Origin: Alphaproteobacteria bacterium
Lineage (GTDB): Bacteria; Pseudomonadota; Alphaproteobacteria; Rs-D84
Reading direction: 5' to 3'
DNA length: 64,000 nt
Assembly (NCBI GenBank): GCA_017511715.1
Contig: JAFWJF010000006.1
Coordinates: 1 to 64,000 of the forward strand
The notes beneath the pieces are model-generated. The model ran no database searches. It was not told the origin of the DNA and was given only the letters and a program-made list of their open reading frames with translations. Positions 17,754 to 42,529 of the stretch are shown one piece after another. The first letter of the stretch is position 1, and each line of letters begins with the position of its first letter. The position numbers and the translations under genes were made by a program.

Positions 17754-17798
17754 GTCCTGCTTGGTAAATTTTGCGCAAACGCATGTTTTGCGCACATG

Positions 17799-17847
17799 AA
17801 AAATCGACAAATAACGCGATGCGTTATTTGTCGATTTTTTTATTTAT
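17799..17847 (+). terminator. Strong terminator hairpin immediately upstream of the adhesin-like gene
   Basis: Perfect 19-bp stem (17799-17817 with 17821-17839), loop GAT, then a seven-T run. It lies between the only visible promoter and the Shine-Dalgarno at about 17851, so readthrough is required. AACGCAT at 17778-17784 can pair with ATGCGTT at 17819-17825, a possible antiterminator. Confidence 0.75.
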
Positions 17848-17866
17848 AAACAAAGGAAGGAAAAAA

Positions 17867-18496
17867 ATGAAAAAATTACTTGGTATATCTTTGGTCGGTA
17901 TATTGACAGCGTTGCCAACGCTTGCAGTGGCAGAAGTGGTTGCTGGTGACCCTGGTGCAACAACAACTTCGGCGGCGGTGGCAAGTGCCACGCCAAAATA
18001 CGCATTGAAAAATGCTGCGGGTACCGATGGTAATGTTGCAACTGCGGGCTATGTAAAGGGTGCATATAATGCCGCGATTAAGGGTGTAAATGCACTTCAG
18101 GGGGAAATTGACCAGATTAATTCTGATTTGGAAGATTTGAGCGGTGATTTGTCTGATGTCCAAACTTCATTGACTAATGATTATGCGACCAAGACAGGTG
18201 TTGCCGCAACGGTTAACAGCGCAACAACATCTGGTTCTTTCACTGGCGCAACAGTATCGGGTAATTTTTCCAACGCGGCGATAAGTGGCACTGTAACGGG
18301 TAATGCAAGTGGAACAATACCAGCCATGACCACATGGGGTTCGGACACACCGGGGACGGCGGATGCAACGGCGACATTGTCCAATGCGACGGTTTCTGGA
18401 AATGCTTCTGGCAGTGTGACCGGTACGGCATCTGGTACTACAACTGGTAATGTATCTGTTGATGGGTATCATGCAACAGCCCAGGCACAGTCATAA
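17867..18496 (+). CDS. Secreted Ala/Thr/Gly/Ser-rich adhesin-like protein, copy 1
   Basis: The 209-aa product has a signal peptide (cut near TLAVAE), a conserved N-terminal block (VVAGDPGATT then ATPKYALKN), a short coiled coil (ALQGEIDQINSDLEDLSGDL) and a C-terminal half of repeated G/T/S/A/N strands (SGSFTGATVSGNFSN, GNASGSVTGTASG). The next gene encodes a paralogue with a near-identical first 80 residues. The frame is open back to 17771, but the ATG at 17867 with AAAGGAAGG starts the signal peptide. A surface filament or adhesin role is inferred from composition only. Confidence 0.75.
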   Translation: MKKLLGISLVGILTALPTLAVAEVVAGDPGATTTSAAVASATPKYALKNAAGTDGNVATAGYVKGAYNAAIKGVNALQGEIDQINSDLEDLSGDLSDVQTSLTNDYATKTGVAATVNSATTSGSFTGATVSGNFSNAAISGTVTGNASGTIPAMTTWGSDTPGTADATATLSNATVSGNASGSVTGTASGTTTGNVSVDGYHATAQAQS

Positions 18497-18504
18497 TGAA
18501 ATAA

Positions 18505-18586
18505 AATTCCCCCTTTGGCAGGGGGTGACCTCCCTCCCGTCCTGACGGACGTACTCCCCCCAAGGGGAGAATTTAGGGGCGGAATT
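18505..18586. repeat. Dispersed GC-rich palindromic repeat, copy between adhesin-like genes
   Basis: Two units back to back: a TTCCCC...GGGGG hairpin and the CCTCCCTCCC-(variable hairpin)-ACTCCCCCCAAGGGGAGAAT form. The same family occurs at 19.7, 20.3, 40.4, 40.6 and 42.3 kb. Far more GC-rich than its surroundings. Confidence 0.85.
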
Positions 18587-18610: not shown

Positions 18611-19660
18611 ATGAAAAAAATATTTGGGATATCGTTGTTTGCTCTGTTGGCAATATCACCAATAATGGCGGGGGCAGAGGTAGTTGCTGGTGACCCGGGG
18701 GCAACAACATCTTCGGCGGCGGCGGCAAGTGCCACACCAAAATATGCATTGAAAAATTCGGCGGATACCGATGGTAATGCGGCAACTGCGGGCTATGTAA
18801 AGGGCGCGTATAATGCCATAATCAAGGGTATTAATGCAACCCAGGGCGAAATCGATACCATAAACACAAATATTGGCACATATGAAAATACGGTAAGTCA
18901 TTTATTGGATAATACAGCAACCCAAGACGGCACCGTTGCAACGATAAAGGCGGCAACATCGACAGAACAAATCGCAAGTTCGTCTGTAAATATTACTGGT
19001 GTGACAACATCTTCGATAAGTGCGACTGCATCAGGCGATGTAAATCTTGCCGTGCCGGTGATGGACAATTGGGCAAATGATTCAGAAGCAACCACCCCAG
19101 TGGCAACAACGACCAGTTTTTCCGGACTTAATGTAAGTGGATTATCGATGTCTGCGCCGGGGACATCAAACACTGCGACATTAACAAAAAGTGGTATTTC
19201 TGGCACGGTAAGCGTAACGGAATATCTGTCGGGGGTGGTGGCAGCCCCAACATACAATTATACGCCACTTATTAGTACCGACCCAAACAGCTATGGATAT
19301 AACGATGGCAGATACTCTGAAAATGCCGATGGATTGGCAAATGGTGAATGGAAGGCAACATGGACCAGTTACGGCACGGCAAAGGGAACAACAAAATGTT
19401 CCGTCATAGGCGAAGACGGCAGTGTTGAGGATTTTGCAACATCGGCTAACATATCTGACACCGCGGGTGGTGGTTGTTGGTGTAAACTGACCGGTTTTAC
19501 GGATAATAATAACACAACATATAATCAATCTTCGCTTTGGGTGTTCAACGGCACGTACCCTTCGGCTTCCGATTGTGCGTACGACTGTGCGCACAACTGC
19601 GCTGACAGCGTCAGCTTCATCTCCGATTTCCGTTCGGTCTTGTTCGGGTCTGTACAGTAA
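18611..19660 (+). CDS. Secreted adhesin-like protein, copy 2, with Cys-rich C-terminal module
   Basis: The 349-aa product shares signal peptide, VVAGDPGATT and ATPKYALKN blocks, and coiled-coil start with the preceding gene, so it is a tandem paralogue. It continues with an S/T/A-rich strand region, then gains about 100 residues that the first copy lacks. These contain Cys residues (TKCSV, GGCWCKLTGF, SDCAYDCAHNCADS) and end in FRSVLFGSVQ. That module could cap or attach the protein at the surface. AAGGAT precedes the ATG. No enzyme motif was recognised. Confidence 0.75.
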   Translation: MKKIFGISLFALLAISPIMAGAEVVAGDPGATTSSAAAASATPKYALKNSADTDGNAATAGYVKGAYNAIIKGINATQGEIDTINTNIGTYENTVSHLLDNTATQDGTVATIKAATSTEQIASSSVNITGVTTSSISATASGDVNLAVPVMDNWANDSEATTPVATTTSFSGLNVSGLSMSAPGTSNTATLTKSGISGTVSVTEYLSGVVAAPTYNYTPLISTDPNSYGYNDGRYSENADGLANGEWKATWTSYGTAKGTTKCSVIGEDGSVEDFATSANISDTAGGGCWCKLTGFTDNNNTTYNQSSLWVFNGTYPSASDCAYDCAHNCADSVSFISDFRSVLFGSVQ

Positions 19661-19721: not shown

Positions 19722-19947
19722 AATTCCCCCTTTGGAGGGGGTGCCACGAAGTGGCAGGGGAGGGTTGACCTCCCTCCCGTCGCTATCGCGCCACCCCTCC
19801 ACCGGATGGGGAATTAAAGATTCTCCCCTTGGGGGGAGTACCGGCGAAGCCGGGGAGGGAGGTTATTCCCATCCGTTCGTTATTATGAATTTAGCAGACA
19901 AACCTCCCCCGTCACCTTTGGTGACACCCCCTCCAAAGGGGGAATAT
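19722..19947. repeat. Cluster of four palindromic repeat units upstream of the DUF559 gene
   Basis: Four units at about 19722-19767, 19767-19815, 19820-19866 and 19899-19947, in alternating orientation. Each has conserved outer arms (AATTCCCC / AGGGGAG, or AACCTCCC / GGGAGGTT) and a variable inner hairpin (for example GCCACGAAGTGGC, CCGGCGAAGCCGG, GTCACCTTTGGTGAC). The inner stems differ in sequence while still pairing, so pairing appears to be conserved. Confidence 0.9.
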
Positions 19948-20000
19948 TAATTCGCAAGAAATTTATTGCTTTTTTTTGCCGCCTTTCCTATTTTTTATGT

Positions 20001-20348
20001 ATGCATGATTATAACAAACAACTTAAAAATTTCGCGCGTGCAAACAGAAAAGCAGGAAACCTTTCTGAAGCATTACTTTGGAACGAATTAAAACAACGAA
20101 AAATGGGTGTCCAGTTTAAACGACAACGCCCCATAGGAAATTATATCGCAGATTTTTATTGCCAAGAAAAAAATTTGGTTATCGAAATTGACGGTTGGTC
20201 ACATGACAATAAATATGAATACGACAACGCCCGTGATGAATATATGAAATCTCTGGGAATACAGGTGTTGCGAATATCTGATATAGATGTTAAACAAGAC
20301 ATGTCGAATGTGTTGATTTGGATAAAGCATAATATTGATAAGTTATAA
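20001..20348 (+). CDS. DUF559 / Vsr-like endonuclease-domain protein
   Basis: The 115-aa protein matches the DUF559 family: ARANRKAGNLSEALLWNEL, then VQFKRQRPIGNYIADFYC and LVIEIDGWSHD with the PD-(D/E)xK-like Asp and Glu, and a C-terminal VLRISDIDV. Relatives are Vsr-type nucleases that nick or cleave DNA; the substrate of DUF559 proteins is largely unknown. No good Shine-Dalgarno precedes the ATG. The gene is enclosed by four palindromic units upstream and one directly after its stop, belonging to the family dispersed through this window. That suggests a link between this nuclease and the repeats. Confidence 0.88.
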   Translation: MHDYNKQLKNFARANRKAGNLSEALLWNELKQRKMGVQFKRQRPIGNYIADFYCQEKNLVIEIDGWSHDNKYEYDNARDEYMKSLGIQVLRISDIDVKQDMSNVLIWIKHNIDKL

Positions 20349-20394
20349 ACCTCCCTCCCCAGCTTCGCTGGTACTCCCCCCAAGGGGAGAATTA
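20348..20394. repeat. Palindromic repeat unit directly after the DUF559 gene
   Basis: AACCTCCCTCCCC-(AGCTTCGCT hairpin)-GGTACTCCCCCCAAGGGG, starting at the last base of the DUF559 stop codon. Confidence 0.9.
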
Positions 20395-23861: not shown

Positions 23862-23938
23862 GCGCCCATGGCTCAATTGGATAGAGCAACAGATTTCTAA
23901 TCTGTGGGTTGCAGGTTCGAGTCCTGCTGGGCGCGCCA
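23862..23938 (+). tRNA. tRNA-Arg(TCT)
   Basis: 77 nt with encoded CCA. Acceptor GCGCCCA/TGGGCGC, discriminator G, anticodon stem ACAGA/TCTGT with loop TTTCTAA, T-arm GCAGG-TTCGAGT-CCTGC. It decodes AGA (and AGG by wobble). Confidence 0.95.
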
Positions 23939-24124
23939 GAAATTAAATCGGGCTTGTCCCGATTTTATTTATGTAGCAAGCCCCAGGGCGAGAACCTTCG
24001 ACAAGCAGTAGGTTTTGGCAGCGAAGCGCACCGAAACCGTTACGATTGCCCCGCAGGCAAGAATTGCCGAGGGAGTCCTGCTGGGCGCGCCAGAAATTAA
24101 ATCGGGTTTTGCCCGATTTTATTT
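23939..24124 (+). repeat. tRNA-3'-end element behind tRNA-Arg(TCT)
   Basis: The last 20 bases of the tRNA plus its terminator hairpin (23919-23970) recur almost exactly at 24073-24124, a period of 154 bp. Between them lie about 100 bp with the blocks TTCGACAA..AGTA, GCGAAG, and ACGATTGCCCC.CAG ending GCCGAGG just before the displaced GAGTCC. The same blocks in the same order lie behind tRNA-Val at 60.8 kb. No protein-coding frame is credible. Confidence 0.75.
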
Positions 24125-24148
24125 TTATATATTTTTTTGACAAAATGC

Positions 24149-37957: not shown

Positions 37958-39729
37958 TGAAGTTTAATGCCAAACAATTACAACAAATGTCAAATACAGT
38001 GCGAGCAAATGCGCTGGGGGCGGTGTTATCTGCGAAATCTGGACATGTTGGAATAATATTGGATGCAAGCGAGATAATAACTGCGATTTATGCTAACCAT
38101 TTGCGGCGCGGTATTGACAGGTTTGTTTTGTCGTCCGGCCATGGCAGTGCGATGTTGTATTCTGTATTAAAATTGGCGGGATACAAAACGGGCGATTTGA
38201 ACACTTTTCGGAAAATTGGTGGTCTGCCCGGACATCCAGAATATGGAATTGATGGTGTCGATGCAACAACTGGACCATTGGGGCAGGGTGTTGGAAATGC
38301 TGTCGGTTTAGCGTTAGCGCAAAAAATCCGTGGCATTCGTGCGCGCACATATTGTTTGTGCAGTGATGGTGATTTGATGGAAGGCGTTTCTTTCGAATCA
38401 TTATCTTTTGCGGGACGATATAATCTGAATAATTTGATAGTTGTTTGGGATGATAACAAAGTATCCATAGATGGCGTGGCACAAACAGATATTGATATAA
38501 ATGCGCGTATGCGGGCGATGGGATTTAATGTAATGTCGTTGCGTGGAAATGATATAGATGCATTAGAACACGCGTTGGAAAGGGCTGAAAAATCAAGCCG
38601 ACCGGTGTTTATTCAGTGTAAAAATATTTTAGGCCGCGGTTCAAGTTTGGCAAACAAAAGTGCGGCGCATGGTTTTGCATTGTCTGAAACAGAAATGTTG
38701 TCGTTGATTGCAAAGAATTCAAATGAAGAGGGCTTGCGTTTGTGGAACGTTGTGAAGCGTCGTCCGATTGGCGAATCTGTGCGTGCGACAGTTGCAATAA
38801 AACGTGTTCGTGTTCCAAAAGTTCCAGAACGTATTTCAACGCGTGAATTATCGGGAATATATCTTGATTTGCTAATGCAGGCTGGGGCAGATTTGATAAT
38901 CGGTTCTGCTGATTTATCAAATAACACAAATGTTAAAACAAGCAAAGCCAAAGAAATAAGTCCAGATAATTTTAATGGTAATTTTATAAACTATGGTGTG
39001 CGCGAACATGCAATGGCGGCGATAATGAACGGGCTTTGTGTTGACGGGCTGCGTGCTGTGGGTTCTACCTTTTTAGTATTCAGCGATTATATGCGACCAT
39101 CGATTCGCCTTGCTGCGATGTCGCATTTGCCGGCTATATATGTTTTTTCGCATGACAGTATTGCCGTTGGCGAAGACGGACCAACACATCAGCCGGTTGA
39201 ACAGTTGCCGTCATTGCGTTTAATACCAAACCTTAATGTATATCGCCCATGCAATATAACGGAAATAGCGCATGCGTGGAACAGTGCGATTGCGAATACA
39301 GATACGCCATCTGCGATAATATTGTCGCGCCAGAAATTCAGACAGATTTCAACACCAAACGATTCGCAATTATCGCGTGGTGCGTATGTGATATATCCTG
39401 CAAAATCTGGGCGCGTAAAATCTACATTGATTGCCACGGGCAGTGAAGTTCCGTTGGCGGTTGAAATCGCCACGCAATTCAAGAATGTTCAGGTTGTATC
39501 TATGTTGAATATCAATGATTTTCGCAAACAAGATGAAAAATACAAGTCTTCTATTTTGCGCGGATGTGTAATTGCGATTGAAGCTGCCGCCCCATCGCCA
39601 TGGTTTGAGTTTGCAGATGCTGTAATTGGACTTGATAAATTTGGCATGTCTGGTGATGGTGAATTGGTTTATCGTGAATATGGTTTTGATGTTGACAAGA
39701 TAATAAAAGAAGTTAAACATTATCTGTAA
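37957..39729 (+). CDS. tkt: Transketolase
   Basis: A thiamine-diphosphate enzyme of the non-oxidative pentose phosphate pathway. The 590-aa protein has SSGHGSAMLYSVLKLAG, GGLPGHPEYG, TGPLGQGVGNAVG, the ThDP/metal motif SDGDLMEG (136-143; Ser replaces the first Gly of GDG) ending NLNNLIVVWDDN, and the central GSADLSNNTNVKTS and GVREHAMAAIMNG. It is shorter than E. coli Tkt (about 663). The ATG begins eight bases after a TATAAT with no Shine-Dalgarno, so it is probably leaderless. Its stop overlaps the next start. Confidence 0.93.
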   Translation: MKFNAKQLQQMSNTVRANALGAVLSAKSGHVGIILDASEIITAIYANHLRRGIDRFVLSSGHGSAMLYSVLKLAGYKTGDLNTFRKIGGLPGHPEYGIDGVDATTGPLGQGVGNAVGLALAQKIRGIRARTYCLCSDGDLMEGVSFESLSFAGRYNLNNLIVVWDDNKVSIDGVAQTDIDINARMRAMGFNVMSLRGNDIDALEHALERAEKSSRPVFIQCKNILGRGSSLANKSAAHGFALSETEMLSLIAKNSNEEGLRLWNVVKRRPIGESVRATVAIKRVRVPKVPERISTRELSGIYLDLLMQAGADLIIGSADLSNNTNVKTSKAKEISPDNFNGNFINYGVREHAMAAIMNGLCVDGLRAVGSTFLVFSDYMRPSIRLAAMSHLPAIYVFSHDSIAVGEDGPTHQPVEQLPSLRLIPNLNVYRPCNITEIAHAWNSAIANTDTPSAIILSRQKFRQISTPNDSQLSRGAYVIYPAKSGRVKSTLIATGSEVPLAVEIATQFKNVQVVSMLNINDFRKQDEKYKSSILRGCVIAIEAAAPSPWFEFADAVIGLDKFGMSGDGELVYREYGFDVDKIIKEVKHYL

Positions 39730-40433
39730 TGACATCAGAAAATGTTTTCGTTTTATCAAGTGGTGAAACAATCCCGGTTGTAATAGAAAATCGGCGTGGG
39801 GTACGTAATGTCACATTGCGACCAAAGACAGCGCCCAAAAAGGAAATACATATTTCTAAGCCTTGGACAACATCAACCAAGTTTGTAATGAATTTTTTAG
39901 AATCTAAACGCAAATGGGTTGAGCATATTTTTAATGCCGCACCACGAAAAGAAAAAATTGAACCGGGTATGACAATTTCAATACTGGGACGCGAAGTAAA
40001 AATAATACATGATGATACAATGCGTTCTAATAAATATATGGACGAATATAAAACAACACTCTGTATTGGTGGCGGGGCAGATATGTTCGAACGGCGTGTT
40101 CGCGATTGTATCAAGGACGAATTGTTATCAGAAATTAAGGCAATAATAAAAACTACACCGCGCGAATATTGGCCACGACATATAACATTGCGTGATACAT
40201 CTTCGCGGTGGGGTTCATGTTCGTCAACTGGTAATATTTCTTTTTCGTGGCGATTGGTGTTCGCCCCATATGAAGTTATGCGCTATGTCGTTATGCACGA
40301 ATTGTCGCACCGGAAACACATGGACCATTCACCTGAATTTTGGGCGAATGTATCTGAACTTTATGGGTTTGGCGTGGAAAGGGCGAAACGGTGGCTTTCC
40401 AAAAACGGACAAAGTTTACATAGGTATTTTTGA
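39729..40433 (+). CDS. YgjP/SprT-like (DUF45) metallopeptidase-domain protein
   Basis: The 234-aa protein contains the zinc motif HELSH at His190-His194 followed by MDHSPEFW, preceded by the family block LRDTSSRWGSCSSTGNISFSWRL. These identify the YgjP-like metal-dependent hydrolase family (M48-related, substrate unknown). Its ATG overlaps the tkt stop (TAATG), so it is coupled to tkt. A palindromic repeat begins right at its stop codon. Confidence 0.9.
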   Translation: MTSENVFVLSSGETIPVVIENRRGVRNVTLRPKTAPKKEIHISKPWTTSTKFVMNFLESKRKWVEHIFNAAPRKEKIEPGMTISILGREVKIIHDDTMRSNKYMDEYKTTLCIGGGADMFERRVRDCIKDELLSEIKAIIKTTPREYWPRHITLRDTSSRWGSCSSTGNISFSWRLVFAPYEVMRYVVMHELSHRKHMDHSPEFWANVSELYGFGVERAKRWLSKNGQSLHRYF

Positions 40434-40530
40434 CCTCCCTCCCGTCCTGCGGACGTACTCCCCCCCAAGGGGAAAATTAAAATTCCCCCTTTGGCAGGGG
40501 GTGGCACCGAAGGTGCCGGGGGAGGGTTTT
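40432..40530. repeat. Dispersed palindromic repeat, two units
   Basis: Units 40432-40480 (GTCCTGCGGAC inner hairpin) and 40481-40530 (GGCACCGAAGGTGCC inner hairpin) in opposite orientation, starting at the stop codon of the metallopeptidase gene. Confidence 0.9.
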
Positions 40531-40559: not shown

Positions 40560-40647
40560 GACCTCCCTCCCGGTCTGGCGACCGTACTCCCCCCAAGGGG
40601 AGAATAACCCAACAGGGAGAATTAAAATTCCCCTTTGGCAGGGAGGC
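40560..40647. repeat. Dispersed palindromic repeat, one full and one partial unit
   Basis: Full unit 40560-40605 (CGGTCTGGCGACCG inner hairpin) and a shortened unit 40611-40647 that keeps only the CCCCTTTGGCAGGGAGG side. This stretch and the one before it hold nothing else. Confidence 0.85.
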
Positions 40648-40722: not shown

Positions 40723-42279
40723 ATGAAAAAAATCGCTTTGTTTTCGTTGATGTGTTGTTTATGTGGCGTGTACGCAGTGCCAGCGTTTGCAACTTGTGGC
40801 GCGTCTACACTTGGTTTTGATGGAAATCAAGATCCTGATGATGATGAATTTTTGTATCAGAATAAACAACAATTTGATTTGACGAAAGCTGGTTATGAAA
40901 ATACCAATCATCAGAATAGTGGGACAGGAATAGGAATAGAGTGTGATACAACGAAGTCTGCGGGTTGTGATAGCGGGCAAGTGATTGAGCTGCTTCCAGG
41001 TCATGTGTTTAAAGGAACTGTTGTAAAAGAAAAAAGAAAGTATCAATGCACTTCCAGGCTTTGGGGTGACGATATGTGGGAAGTTGTTGGGGGATTTTGT
41101 GAAACCCGCTGGGGAACCATACAGGTGGGACAATCGTTGACGGATAAAAAAACAACAACTGACTGTAGCGGCTTAAACAAGACAGAGAACAATACTGATG
41201 CCGTTAAACTTTGGCAAGTGATTTGTCGTGATGGTGGTATTGTCTGGTGCAAACCAACAGATTGTAACGCTGGTTATAAACTTGATAGAAAAAATGGCAA
41301 GTGCATAAAAGATTGTTCCGGGGATAAATGCAAAGAAAATTGTCCGACTGGTCAAACACGTGCAACGAAAGATATTATTGTGACAAAGGTTTGTTCTGGT
41401 GATAAGTGTGTCGCGATAGAAAAAGGTCAGTGTTATGATACTGATTTCTTGAAATGTATGGAAGCAGCAGATCGCGGAGAACCTGCAAATTGGAACGGGA
41501 AATCGTGTAATTGTGGTGATAGAATGGTTTGGGACAACAAGAGCTATAGATGTAAGGCAAAAAGTGGCGGTGGAAATGTTGCTCCACAAAAATCTTGTAA
41601 AGACTTACGTAAAACACCGACAGGAAAAGCGTGTTGTGATTTGCCAAAAACTCAGGCGGAATACAACGAAGAAACAGATACATGTAATTGCTTAGATAAA
41701 AACGCCGAATTCAGAATAGAAATAGAAAATGGTAAGGGGATGTGTGTCGCAAAAGAACCTGTACCCGAACAAAATTGTACATACTATTTCAGTGGCACCA
41801 TTGAATGTGGTGACAGAACGGTTGAAATCAGTGAAACGAAAAGCGTCACTGTTCCGTGTGTAGAAGGTGTTGTTGAGAATCTTACAGAAGAGATGTTTGA
41901 AAACGATACCGGAAAATTGCGACAAATCAGAGAAAAATTGTGTGCGGGGGTTGATGGGAATGGTTCAACACCTGGCACAACAGTTGTTAGCACGGCAACA
42001 GTTGATTATCGTTCTGCAGAAGCAATATTGGACAAATTTGTTTCGAACGCAGAAAGCGAACGCAGTGTTTGGAAAAACGCAGAAGGCAAATTTAACACAA
42101 CGCGTTTGGCATCTGATATTACCGCCGGTGTAGTGTTGGGAACTGTCGGTGGTGTGGTGACAGGCGTTGTTATCAAAAAGAATCAGGTAAAGAAAGGTTT
42201 TGAAGCACTGCATTGCGCTGTTGGTGGACAGAAAGTTGCCGAATGGGGTGATGAATTTAGTGTCGGCCTAAGAAGATAA
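40723..42279 (+). CDS. Cys-rich secreted protein with C-terminal hydrophobic segment
   Basis: The 518-aa product has a signal peptide (cut near PAFATC), about 30 Cys residues in short spacings (CNAGYKLDRKNGKCIKDC, CSGDKCKENCPTGQT, CNCGDRMVWDNKSYRCK), a Thr/Ser linker, and a Gly/Val membrane-like segment (TAGVVLGTVGGVVTGVVIKK, about 468-487) before a short tail. The C-terminal segment suggests membrane anchoring with the Cys-rich part outside. It resembles the partial protein at position 1 in its C..C repeats. AAAGGAAAGGA precedes the ATG. Function unknown. Confidence 0.75.
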   Translation: MKKIALFSLMCCLCGVYAVPAFATCGASTLGFDGNQDPDDDEFLYQNKQQFDLTKAGYENTNHQNSGTGIGIECDTTKSAGCDSGQVIELLPGHVFKGTVVKEKRKYQCTSRLWGDDMWEVVGGFCETRWGTIQVGQSLTDKKTTTDCSGLNKTENNTDAVKLWQVICRDGGIVWCKPTDCNAGYKLDRKNGKCIKDCSGDKCKENCPTGQTRATKDIIVTKVCSGDKCVAIEKGQCYDTDFLKCMEAADRGEPANWNGKSCNCGDRMVWDNKSYRCKAKSGGGNVAPQKSCKDLRKTPTGKACCDLPKTQAEYNEETDTCNCLDKNAEFRIEIENGKGMCVAKEPVPEQNCTYYFSGTIECGDRTVEISETKSVTVPCVEGVVENLTEEMFENDTGKLRQIREKLCAGVDGNGSTPGTTVVSTATVDYRSAEAILDKFVSNAESERSVWKNAEGKFNTTRLASDITAGVVLGTVGGVVTGVVIKKNQVKKGFEALHCAVGGQKVAEWGDEFSVGLRR

Positions 42280-42308: not shown

Positions 42309-42440
42309 ACCTCCCTCCCGTCCTGCGGACGTACTCCCCCCAAGGGGAGAATGCCTCCCTCCCGTCCTGCGGACGTACTCCCCAAGGGGAGAATAATAAG
42401 TTCTCCGCCTGTGGAGGAGTACCCGCAGGGGGAGGTGGTC
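42307..42440. repeat. Dispersed palindromic repeats, three units
   Basis: Units at 42307-42352, 42354-42395 and 42397-42440. The first two are near-identical, with a GTCCTGCGGAC inner hairpin. Confidence 0.9.
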
Positions 42441-42478: not shown

Positions 42479-42529
42479 AGACCACCCCGGCACTTCGTGC
42501 CACCCCTCCGCAGGAGGGGGAACTTTAAT
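42479..42529. repeat. Dispersed palindromic repeat, one unit
   Basis: Unit with a GGCACTTCGTGCC inner hairpin. With the previous array it forms a nested inverted repeat, GGTGGTCTTT (42434-42443) pairing with AAAGACCACC (42477-42486), around a 33-bp AT-rich loop. Confidence 0.85.

Follow-up and report, generated by a model that had tools for sequence, protein, structure and literature searches.

BoxC-type repeats were reported in Escherichia coli in the 1990s, and we know of no account of their origin or of the means by which they spread; the DUF559 domain is very common, and its function is not known. The intrastrand-triplex repeats called BoxC, PIT and TMECO are reported from more than 260 bacterial genomes, with ties to local instability and no mobility genes noted near them, and PIT/BoxC showed neither terminator nor promoter activity (Holder et al., 2015; PMC4666352). 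The repeat class is already known; no paper was found that links any enzyme to BoxC, or that joins ycjD, BoxC, DUF559 and the intrastrand triplex, in a search that covered few subscription papers and may have overlooked a report. A first-pass annotation of a 64,000-nt stretch of alphaproteobacterial DNA (hereafter the window) had described a DUF559 nuclease gene enclosed by dispersed palindromes. We have followed up this locus, and sequence comparison now makes DUF559 the foremost candidate for an enzyme by which BoxC-like hairpin repeats are moved. A link between the two would, if true, give both a function.

The gene at 20001–20348 on the forward strand of the window encodes a protein of 115 aa with conserved residues E23, D51, E62, D64 and H68, and belongs to DUF559 (PF04480, E 3e-28), in keeping with its earlier description as Vsr-like. 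At its stop codon begins a palindromic element of subfamily F1 (20348–20392, reverse strand), the third arm of which faces the gene and which forms, with a second F1 element at 19820–19864 (forward strand), a 45-nt inverted pair that is 96 % complementary and has the DUF559 gene in between. An F3 element closest to the gene on its upstream side (19902–19945, reverse), an F1/F5-like hybrid (19768–19815, reverse) and an outermost F3 element (19723–19766, forward) bring the cluster to five palindromic units, four of them 5' of the gene and one 3', at the places where the first-pass annotation had put them. Inspection of the window sequence revealed no T-run after the palindromic units adjoining the DUF559 gene, and an Rfam scan of the window returned tRNAs only. 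Directly upstream of the cluster lie tandem paralogous secreted-protein genes (17771–18496 and 18611–19660; 80 % identical over 264 nt), and the DUF559 unit of another locus (L063) is also adjoined by small secreted-protein genes. Elsewhere in the window, beside a tRNA gene, two 57-nt direct repeats lying 154 nt apart (23919–24129; 91 %; GAGTCCTGCTGGGCGCGCC...) are probably a duplicated tRNA 3' end with its terminator.

The same palindrome family recurs at a distance from the gene. Just 3' of an ORF, a truncated F3 element (forward) is joined to an F1 element (reverse) at 18505–18572, and further F1 elements on the reverse strand occupy 40433–40477, adjoining the stop of the ORF at 39729–40433, 40561–40605, and 42309–42352, about 30 nt 3' of the ORF at 40723–42279. 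Dispersal to 18.5, 40.4, 40.6 and 42.3 kb had been recorded at first pass; to these places can be added an F3 element at 40482–40528 (forward), a short F1 element at 42356–42395 (reverse) and an element of the cross-phylum type GTTCCCCCTCC..GGGGTGGT at 42479–42524 (reverse). When up to three mismatches are allowed, the arm TACTCCCCCCAAGGGGAGAAT has 12 copies in the 0.85-Mb genome and its reversed pattern has none, and single elements fold at z of about −2.7 to −3.5, from which it follows that the palindromes are not due to chance. The element plan consists of a first hairpin (C-rich then G-rich), a variable second hairpin and then an unpaired G-rich third arm (for example GGGGAGGGTT and GGGAGGGAGGTT), the last being a feature absent from the earlier description. 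In a MAFFT alignment of 19 elements the outer arms are conserved and pairing of hairpin 2 is kept in most copies, with double changes at 4/4 inner pairs, the alignment being imperfect for one subfamily so that some cells score as broken pairs; the claim that the inner hairpin varies and still pairs between conserved outer arms is therefore upheld.

At least four palindrome sequence subfamilies exist side by side in the window's genome. Its second DUF559 gene (C2:10380–10694; there are no further ones) is bracketed by a different subfamily, again beginning beside the stop codon, and the DUF559 genes of congeners are bracketed by still other palindromes. The window arm was found in no other genome among 59 sampled, and is present in RUG12675, a sister genome with a DUF559 gene. 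The CCTGCCCCC..GGGGCGGG type has nine copies in one genome with a DUF559 gene (G003), and outside it gave two-mismatch matches only, close to the reversed-pattern background. Arm-specific patterns appear, on these comparisons, to be lineage specific.

In an AlphaFold2 model (mean pLDDT 81.5) the window protein was most similar to NGO0050 (3hrl; Z 16.2), and it also matched the homing endonuclease I-Bth0305I (3r3p; Z 14.2, rmsd 1.9 over 92 residues) and Vsr (Z 11.4). It is predicted to be a single nuclease domain of the EDxHD/Vsr type, a fold as different from that of RAYT as had been expected, and with its 115 aa comprises the catalytic domain only, no extended DNA-binding region being present. 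Among 42 sequences from many phyla, residues R16, E23, D51 and E62 never vary, and D64 and H68 hardly do; such conservation argues for selection on nuclease activity. PADLOC returned marginal matches only.

The association between DUF559 genes and palindromes is general and very strong. As each lineage has its own stem and loop, simple fixed patterns gave few matches across genera, and hairpin statistics were used instead. At 80 named loci from roughly twenty phyla, obtained in a scan with the window protein and representing best matches rather than a random sample, GC-rich hairpins numbered 4.7 per kb beside DUF559 compared with 0.17 per kb beyond 600 bp. In alphaproteobacterial and Flavobacteriaceae sets, chosen by Pfam family and not by likeness to the window protein, the corresponding values were 5.1 and 3.6 per kb beside the gene, as against 0.32 and 0.06 per kb farther off. 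Hairpins flanked the gene at 70/80 named, 45/48 alphaproteobacterial and 24/30 Flavobacteriaceae loci and at 13/17 loci of a further set, so that DUF559 genes are flanked as a rule, the opposite of what would have refuted the first-pass reading. Of the matches to a grammar drawn from the elements of the window's genome, 99 lay within 400 bp of DUF559 genes and 23 in the remaining 903 kb, while shuffled and reversed control sequence gave none, and an inverted repeat spanned 19 of 76 DUF559 genes compared with 5 of 517 neighbouring control ORFs. The elements are also oriented, the closest one turning its third arm towards the DUF559 gene in 196 of 229 cases (p 2e-29); the Flavobacteriaceae alone displayed no such bias (16/31), because many of the sampled copies sit inside leuS, metH or hemD with the order of the arms reversed. 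The more alike two DUF559 proteins are, the more 8-mers their 210-bp flanks have in common (174 loci; Mantel r 0.60, 0/300 permutations), and pairs from different phyla only, with phylum labels set by hand from record titles, gave a partial r of 0.58 given the flanks 500–1000 bp away. Similarity of the palindromes thus tracks similarity of the DUF559 protein, between phyla too.

Gene and repeat also occur together at the level of whole genomes. A strong DUF559 match was present in 57 of 240 alphaproteobacterial genomes, and the palindrome CCCTCTCCC-N2-8-GGGAGAGGG was counted in all 240. Palindrome-rich genomes, with at least five copies, numbered 36, and 31 of these had DUF559 compared with 26 of the 204 others (odds ratio 42, p 2e-18, kinship and genome size being ignored); 759 of the 836 copies fell in genomes with DUF559. 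The case that the first-pass annotation had named as refuting, genomes rich in the palindrome with no DUF559 gene, is represented by a minority: five of the 36 are without a strong match, two of these having a weak or fragmentary one. Repeat-rich genomes that lack the gene include G273, G464 and G493. CGTC-tagged REPs, which are said to be without a transposase (PMC3733652) and were tested here for that reason, were rejected as a partner of DUF559: at five or more copies in the same 240 genomes DUF559 was present in 9/27 compared with 48/213 (p 0.23), other palindromes flank DUF559 in CGTC-rich genomes, and CGTC-REPs themselves (CGTC tag, 8–9 bp stem, CCA tail) were not found at DUF559 genes. 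With these unrelated repeats as a control, it is unlikely that the co-occurrence merely reflects large genome size or richness in repeats, kinship again being ignored.

Signs of movement were found in several genomes. The window unit is present with both ends in RUG12675, 83 % identical over 423 bp and at a non-syntenic place; at the RUG12675 site the window's genome has no unit, but a 2.9-kb region with three other genes also differs. Four units of about 690 bp, 94–98 % identical, occupy different places in genome G005, and further copies there all have one common 193-bp internal deletion, an amplified form such as is expected of non-autonomous derivatives. In one G005 copy the inner hairpin alone differs, the rest of the sequence being identical, which indicates that this part of the element is open to exchange. 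The queA gene has in-frame insertions of DUF559 and its two ends at two loops, both of which are occupied in locus L168; the loops are short (empty) in most congeners and in the window's genome, they differ in length, and two distinct DUF559/palindrome subfamilies use both sites. In-frame DUF559 insertions also occur in leuS, metH, hsdR, type ISP and mod genes, hemD and ispG have DUF559 as a fusion at their start, and the same sites in queA and leuS are occupied in different species. No target-site duplication was seen at the queA, G005 and RUG12675 sites, no clean empty site being among them, and a clean empty site with such a duplication was likewise not found in S. meliloti and Azospirillum plasmids or at E. 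coli zntA-tusA, tldD-aaeR and nrdA-nrdB.

Several DUF559 genes lie in or beside restriction-modification or BREX genes. In loci L070, L071, L074, L079, L097, L099 and L101 the neighbours of DUF559 are hsdS-like sequence and the restriction-modification gene that follows; the palindrome of L074, L079, L099 and L101 starts exactly at the LMQQLFP-like end of hsdS. A DUF559 gene with a GAGAGGG palindrome lies inside the BREX pglX gene region of a Synechocystis plasmid (L312). The HsdR genes of L126 (6483–10889) and L128 contain, in frame, both a GIY-YIG domain and a DUF559 domain accompanied by palindromes, so that a single restriction gene houses homing-type nucleases of two unrelated kinds.

The E. 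coli gene ycjD is a DUF559 gene, and the element between ycjD and fabI, CCCTCGCCCCTCTGGGGAGAGGGTTAGGGTGAGGGG, is letter for letter TMECO no. 9 (1,351,204–1,351,239) as tabulated by Holder et al. (2015; PMC4666352), and is thus a published BoxC/triplex repeat. A 66-bp query with this element found a median of 17 places per E. coli genome. Further BoxC places, in 59 E. coli genomes taken evenly down the match ranking with kinship and genome size ignored, had a median of 23 where ycjD is present and 7.5 where it is not (p 1e-8). In O157 strains ycjD is absent and about 20 copies are kept, which indicates that BoxC copies outlive the gene; several copies are fixed in nearly all E. coli strains, which indicates that movement is rare at present. 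The nrdA-nrdB spacer contains BoxC in strain E30 (L319 875–985) and REP/BIME arrays in other strains (L321–L323): two repeat families replace each other there, and BoxC is polymorphic at this place with an alternative that is not an empty site. As ycjD adjoins a BoxC copy, the link to DUF559 is testable in E. coli.

We consider it fairly probable that the window locus is a composite mobile element in which the DUF559 nuclease gene lies between two inverted cognate ends and is mobilized by the nuclease that it encodes. We infer that mobilization of the palindromes is nuclease-driven, DUF559 binding and cutting the ends, repair completing the move and the third arm, possibly in a triplex, acting as recognition signal. 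The autonomous unit would comprise the gene and two inverted ends, each of BoxC type and, in the window's genome, made up of the C-rich/G-rich hairpin, the second variable hairpin and the G-rich third arm facing the gene. Recognition would depend on the conserved parts of the folded end, namely hairpin 1 and the third arm, with the variable inner hairpin as a spacer. DUF559 would most likely cut at or beside the folded end, acting in cis on the composite unit and in trans on solo ends; as the break is repaired, the element would be copied or re-inserted. Solo elements would stand to the composite unit as REPs do to RAYT REPtrons, being non-autonomous copies or remnants with one end, and elements without stop codons in one frame would be tolerable inside genes. 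The third arm mirrors the purine strand of the hairpin better than it matches it directly in three wide sets (p 5e-8, 8e-7 and 2e-10), which is what a triplex would require; in the window's genus the same comparison was not significant (p 0.10). On a broader reading, which seems to us evenly poised between right and wrong, DUF559 would be the missing mobilizer of BoxC/intrastrand-triplex repeats, a minimal pan-bacterial element in which one Vsr/EDxHD nuclease reads folded ends without an HUH or DDE transposase and plants its own gene in frame in essential genes. If true, this would explain the recurrent in-frame nuclease-domain insertions in queA, leuS, metH and hsdR.

The palindromes could instead be spread by slippage, template switching or a host enzyme, with the DUF559 gene hitch-hiking between two of them, as might be supposed from the genomes that have palindromes without the gene (O157, G273, G464 and G493) and from the local instability, with no mobility genes nearby, to which Holder et al. 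(2015; PMC4666352) tie the repeats. A passenger, however, need not be one and the same gene in about 20 phyla, and we regard this explanation as unlikely given that the ends covary with the DUF559 protein across phyla, that the gene is present in nearly all repeat-rich genomes and that catalytic residues are kept in all aligned copies. It is more doubtful still that DUF559 processes palindromes or serves in defence, cutting hairpin or triplex for fork protection or control of foreign DNA, staying near and moving nothing. The gene lies between oriented inverted ends and moves together with them, many insertions are in housekeeping genes without a defence role, and PADLOC scores are marginal; against this must be set a fold common to Vsr and Holliday resolvases, the many copies in restriction-modification loci (hsdS/hsdR, type ISP and mod) and the DNA damage caused in methylase-less Caulobacter by VsrA, a Vsr-like DUF559 protein (PMC12907096).

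A close rival of the composite mobile element, and one that overlaps with it, follows the logic of homing: DUF559 would cut empty host-gene alleles and homologous repair would copy the element in, the palindromes being by-products or linkers. I-Bth0305I is the closest solved nuclease with known biology, the queA and leuS sites are reused in different species, and a GIY-YIG domain is likewise in frame in HsdR. Nevertheless, the use of both queA sites by two distinct subfamilies suggests permissive loops and not one target, most copies are free-standing and intergenic at non-homologous places, and DUF559 has no DNA-binding extension, so that we give the homing variant little credence. Finally, the hairpins might be no more than terminators or attenuators that surround a gene gained by horizontal transfer: they do lie at gene ends, and some units are 0–30 nt past stops. 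The units beside the DUF559 gene have no T-run, however, PIT/BoxC showed neither terminator nor promoter activity (PMC4666352), and such pairs are essentially absent from ordinary genes of the same loci (5/517), which makes this explanation scarcely believable.

The composite mobile element that we favour has features of several known systems. With BoxC/PIT/TMECO the window elements share a C-rich/G-rich hairpin, a G-rich third arm and tens of dispersed intergenic copies. They differ from BoxC in their short stems and in a second hairpin, variable in sequence, that separates the first from the third arm, the linker being a hairpin of 10–20 nt where the published triplex-repeat search rule has loops of 1–6 nt; the window element thus has the BoxC plan and one hairpin more. 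CGTC-tagged REPs (Di Nocera, 2013; PMC3733652) are likewise alphaproteobacterial palindromes without a known transposase, and the CGTC..CCA junction around some inner hairpins resembles them. Rickettsia palindromic elements, compared by description only, are also palindromic and lie in frame in alphaproteobacterial ORFs (PMC10969869), but are about 150 bp long and have no nuclease gene. DUF559 has the fold and the conserved acidic and His residues of I-Bth0305I and Vsr, whereas it consists of the catalytic domain only, lies outside introns and inteins and has palindromes on either side; the terminal inverted repeats around its gene are like those of an insertion sequence. As in REP/REPIN–RAYT systems, one small nuclease gene is bracketed by dispersed palindromes, with inverted pairs, lineage-specific subfamilies and non-autonomous copies. 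The enzyme, in contrast, is EDxHD/Vsr-like and not an HUH Y1 tyrosine transposase, and the GTAG tetranucleotide that marks the foot of the REP hairpin is absent from the 19 aligned elements of the window's genome; because of these two differences the system is not a member of REP/RAYT. Flanking, co-occurrence and fold agree in supporting what the first-pass annotation had proposed, a REP/RAYT-like arrangement with a different enzyme, mobilization being the part that we infer. By analogy, the DUF559/palindrome system likely works as REP/RAYT does with an unrelated enzyme, and would, if this is true, amount to a second solution, built on another enzyme, to the same way of life.
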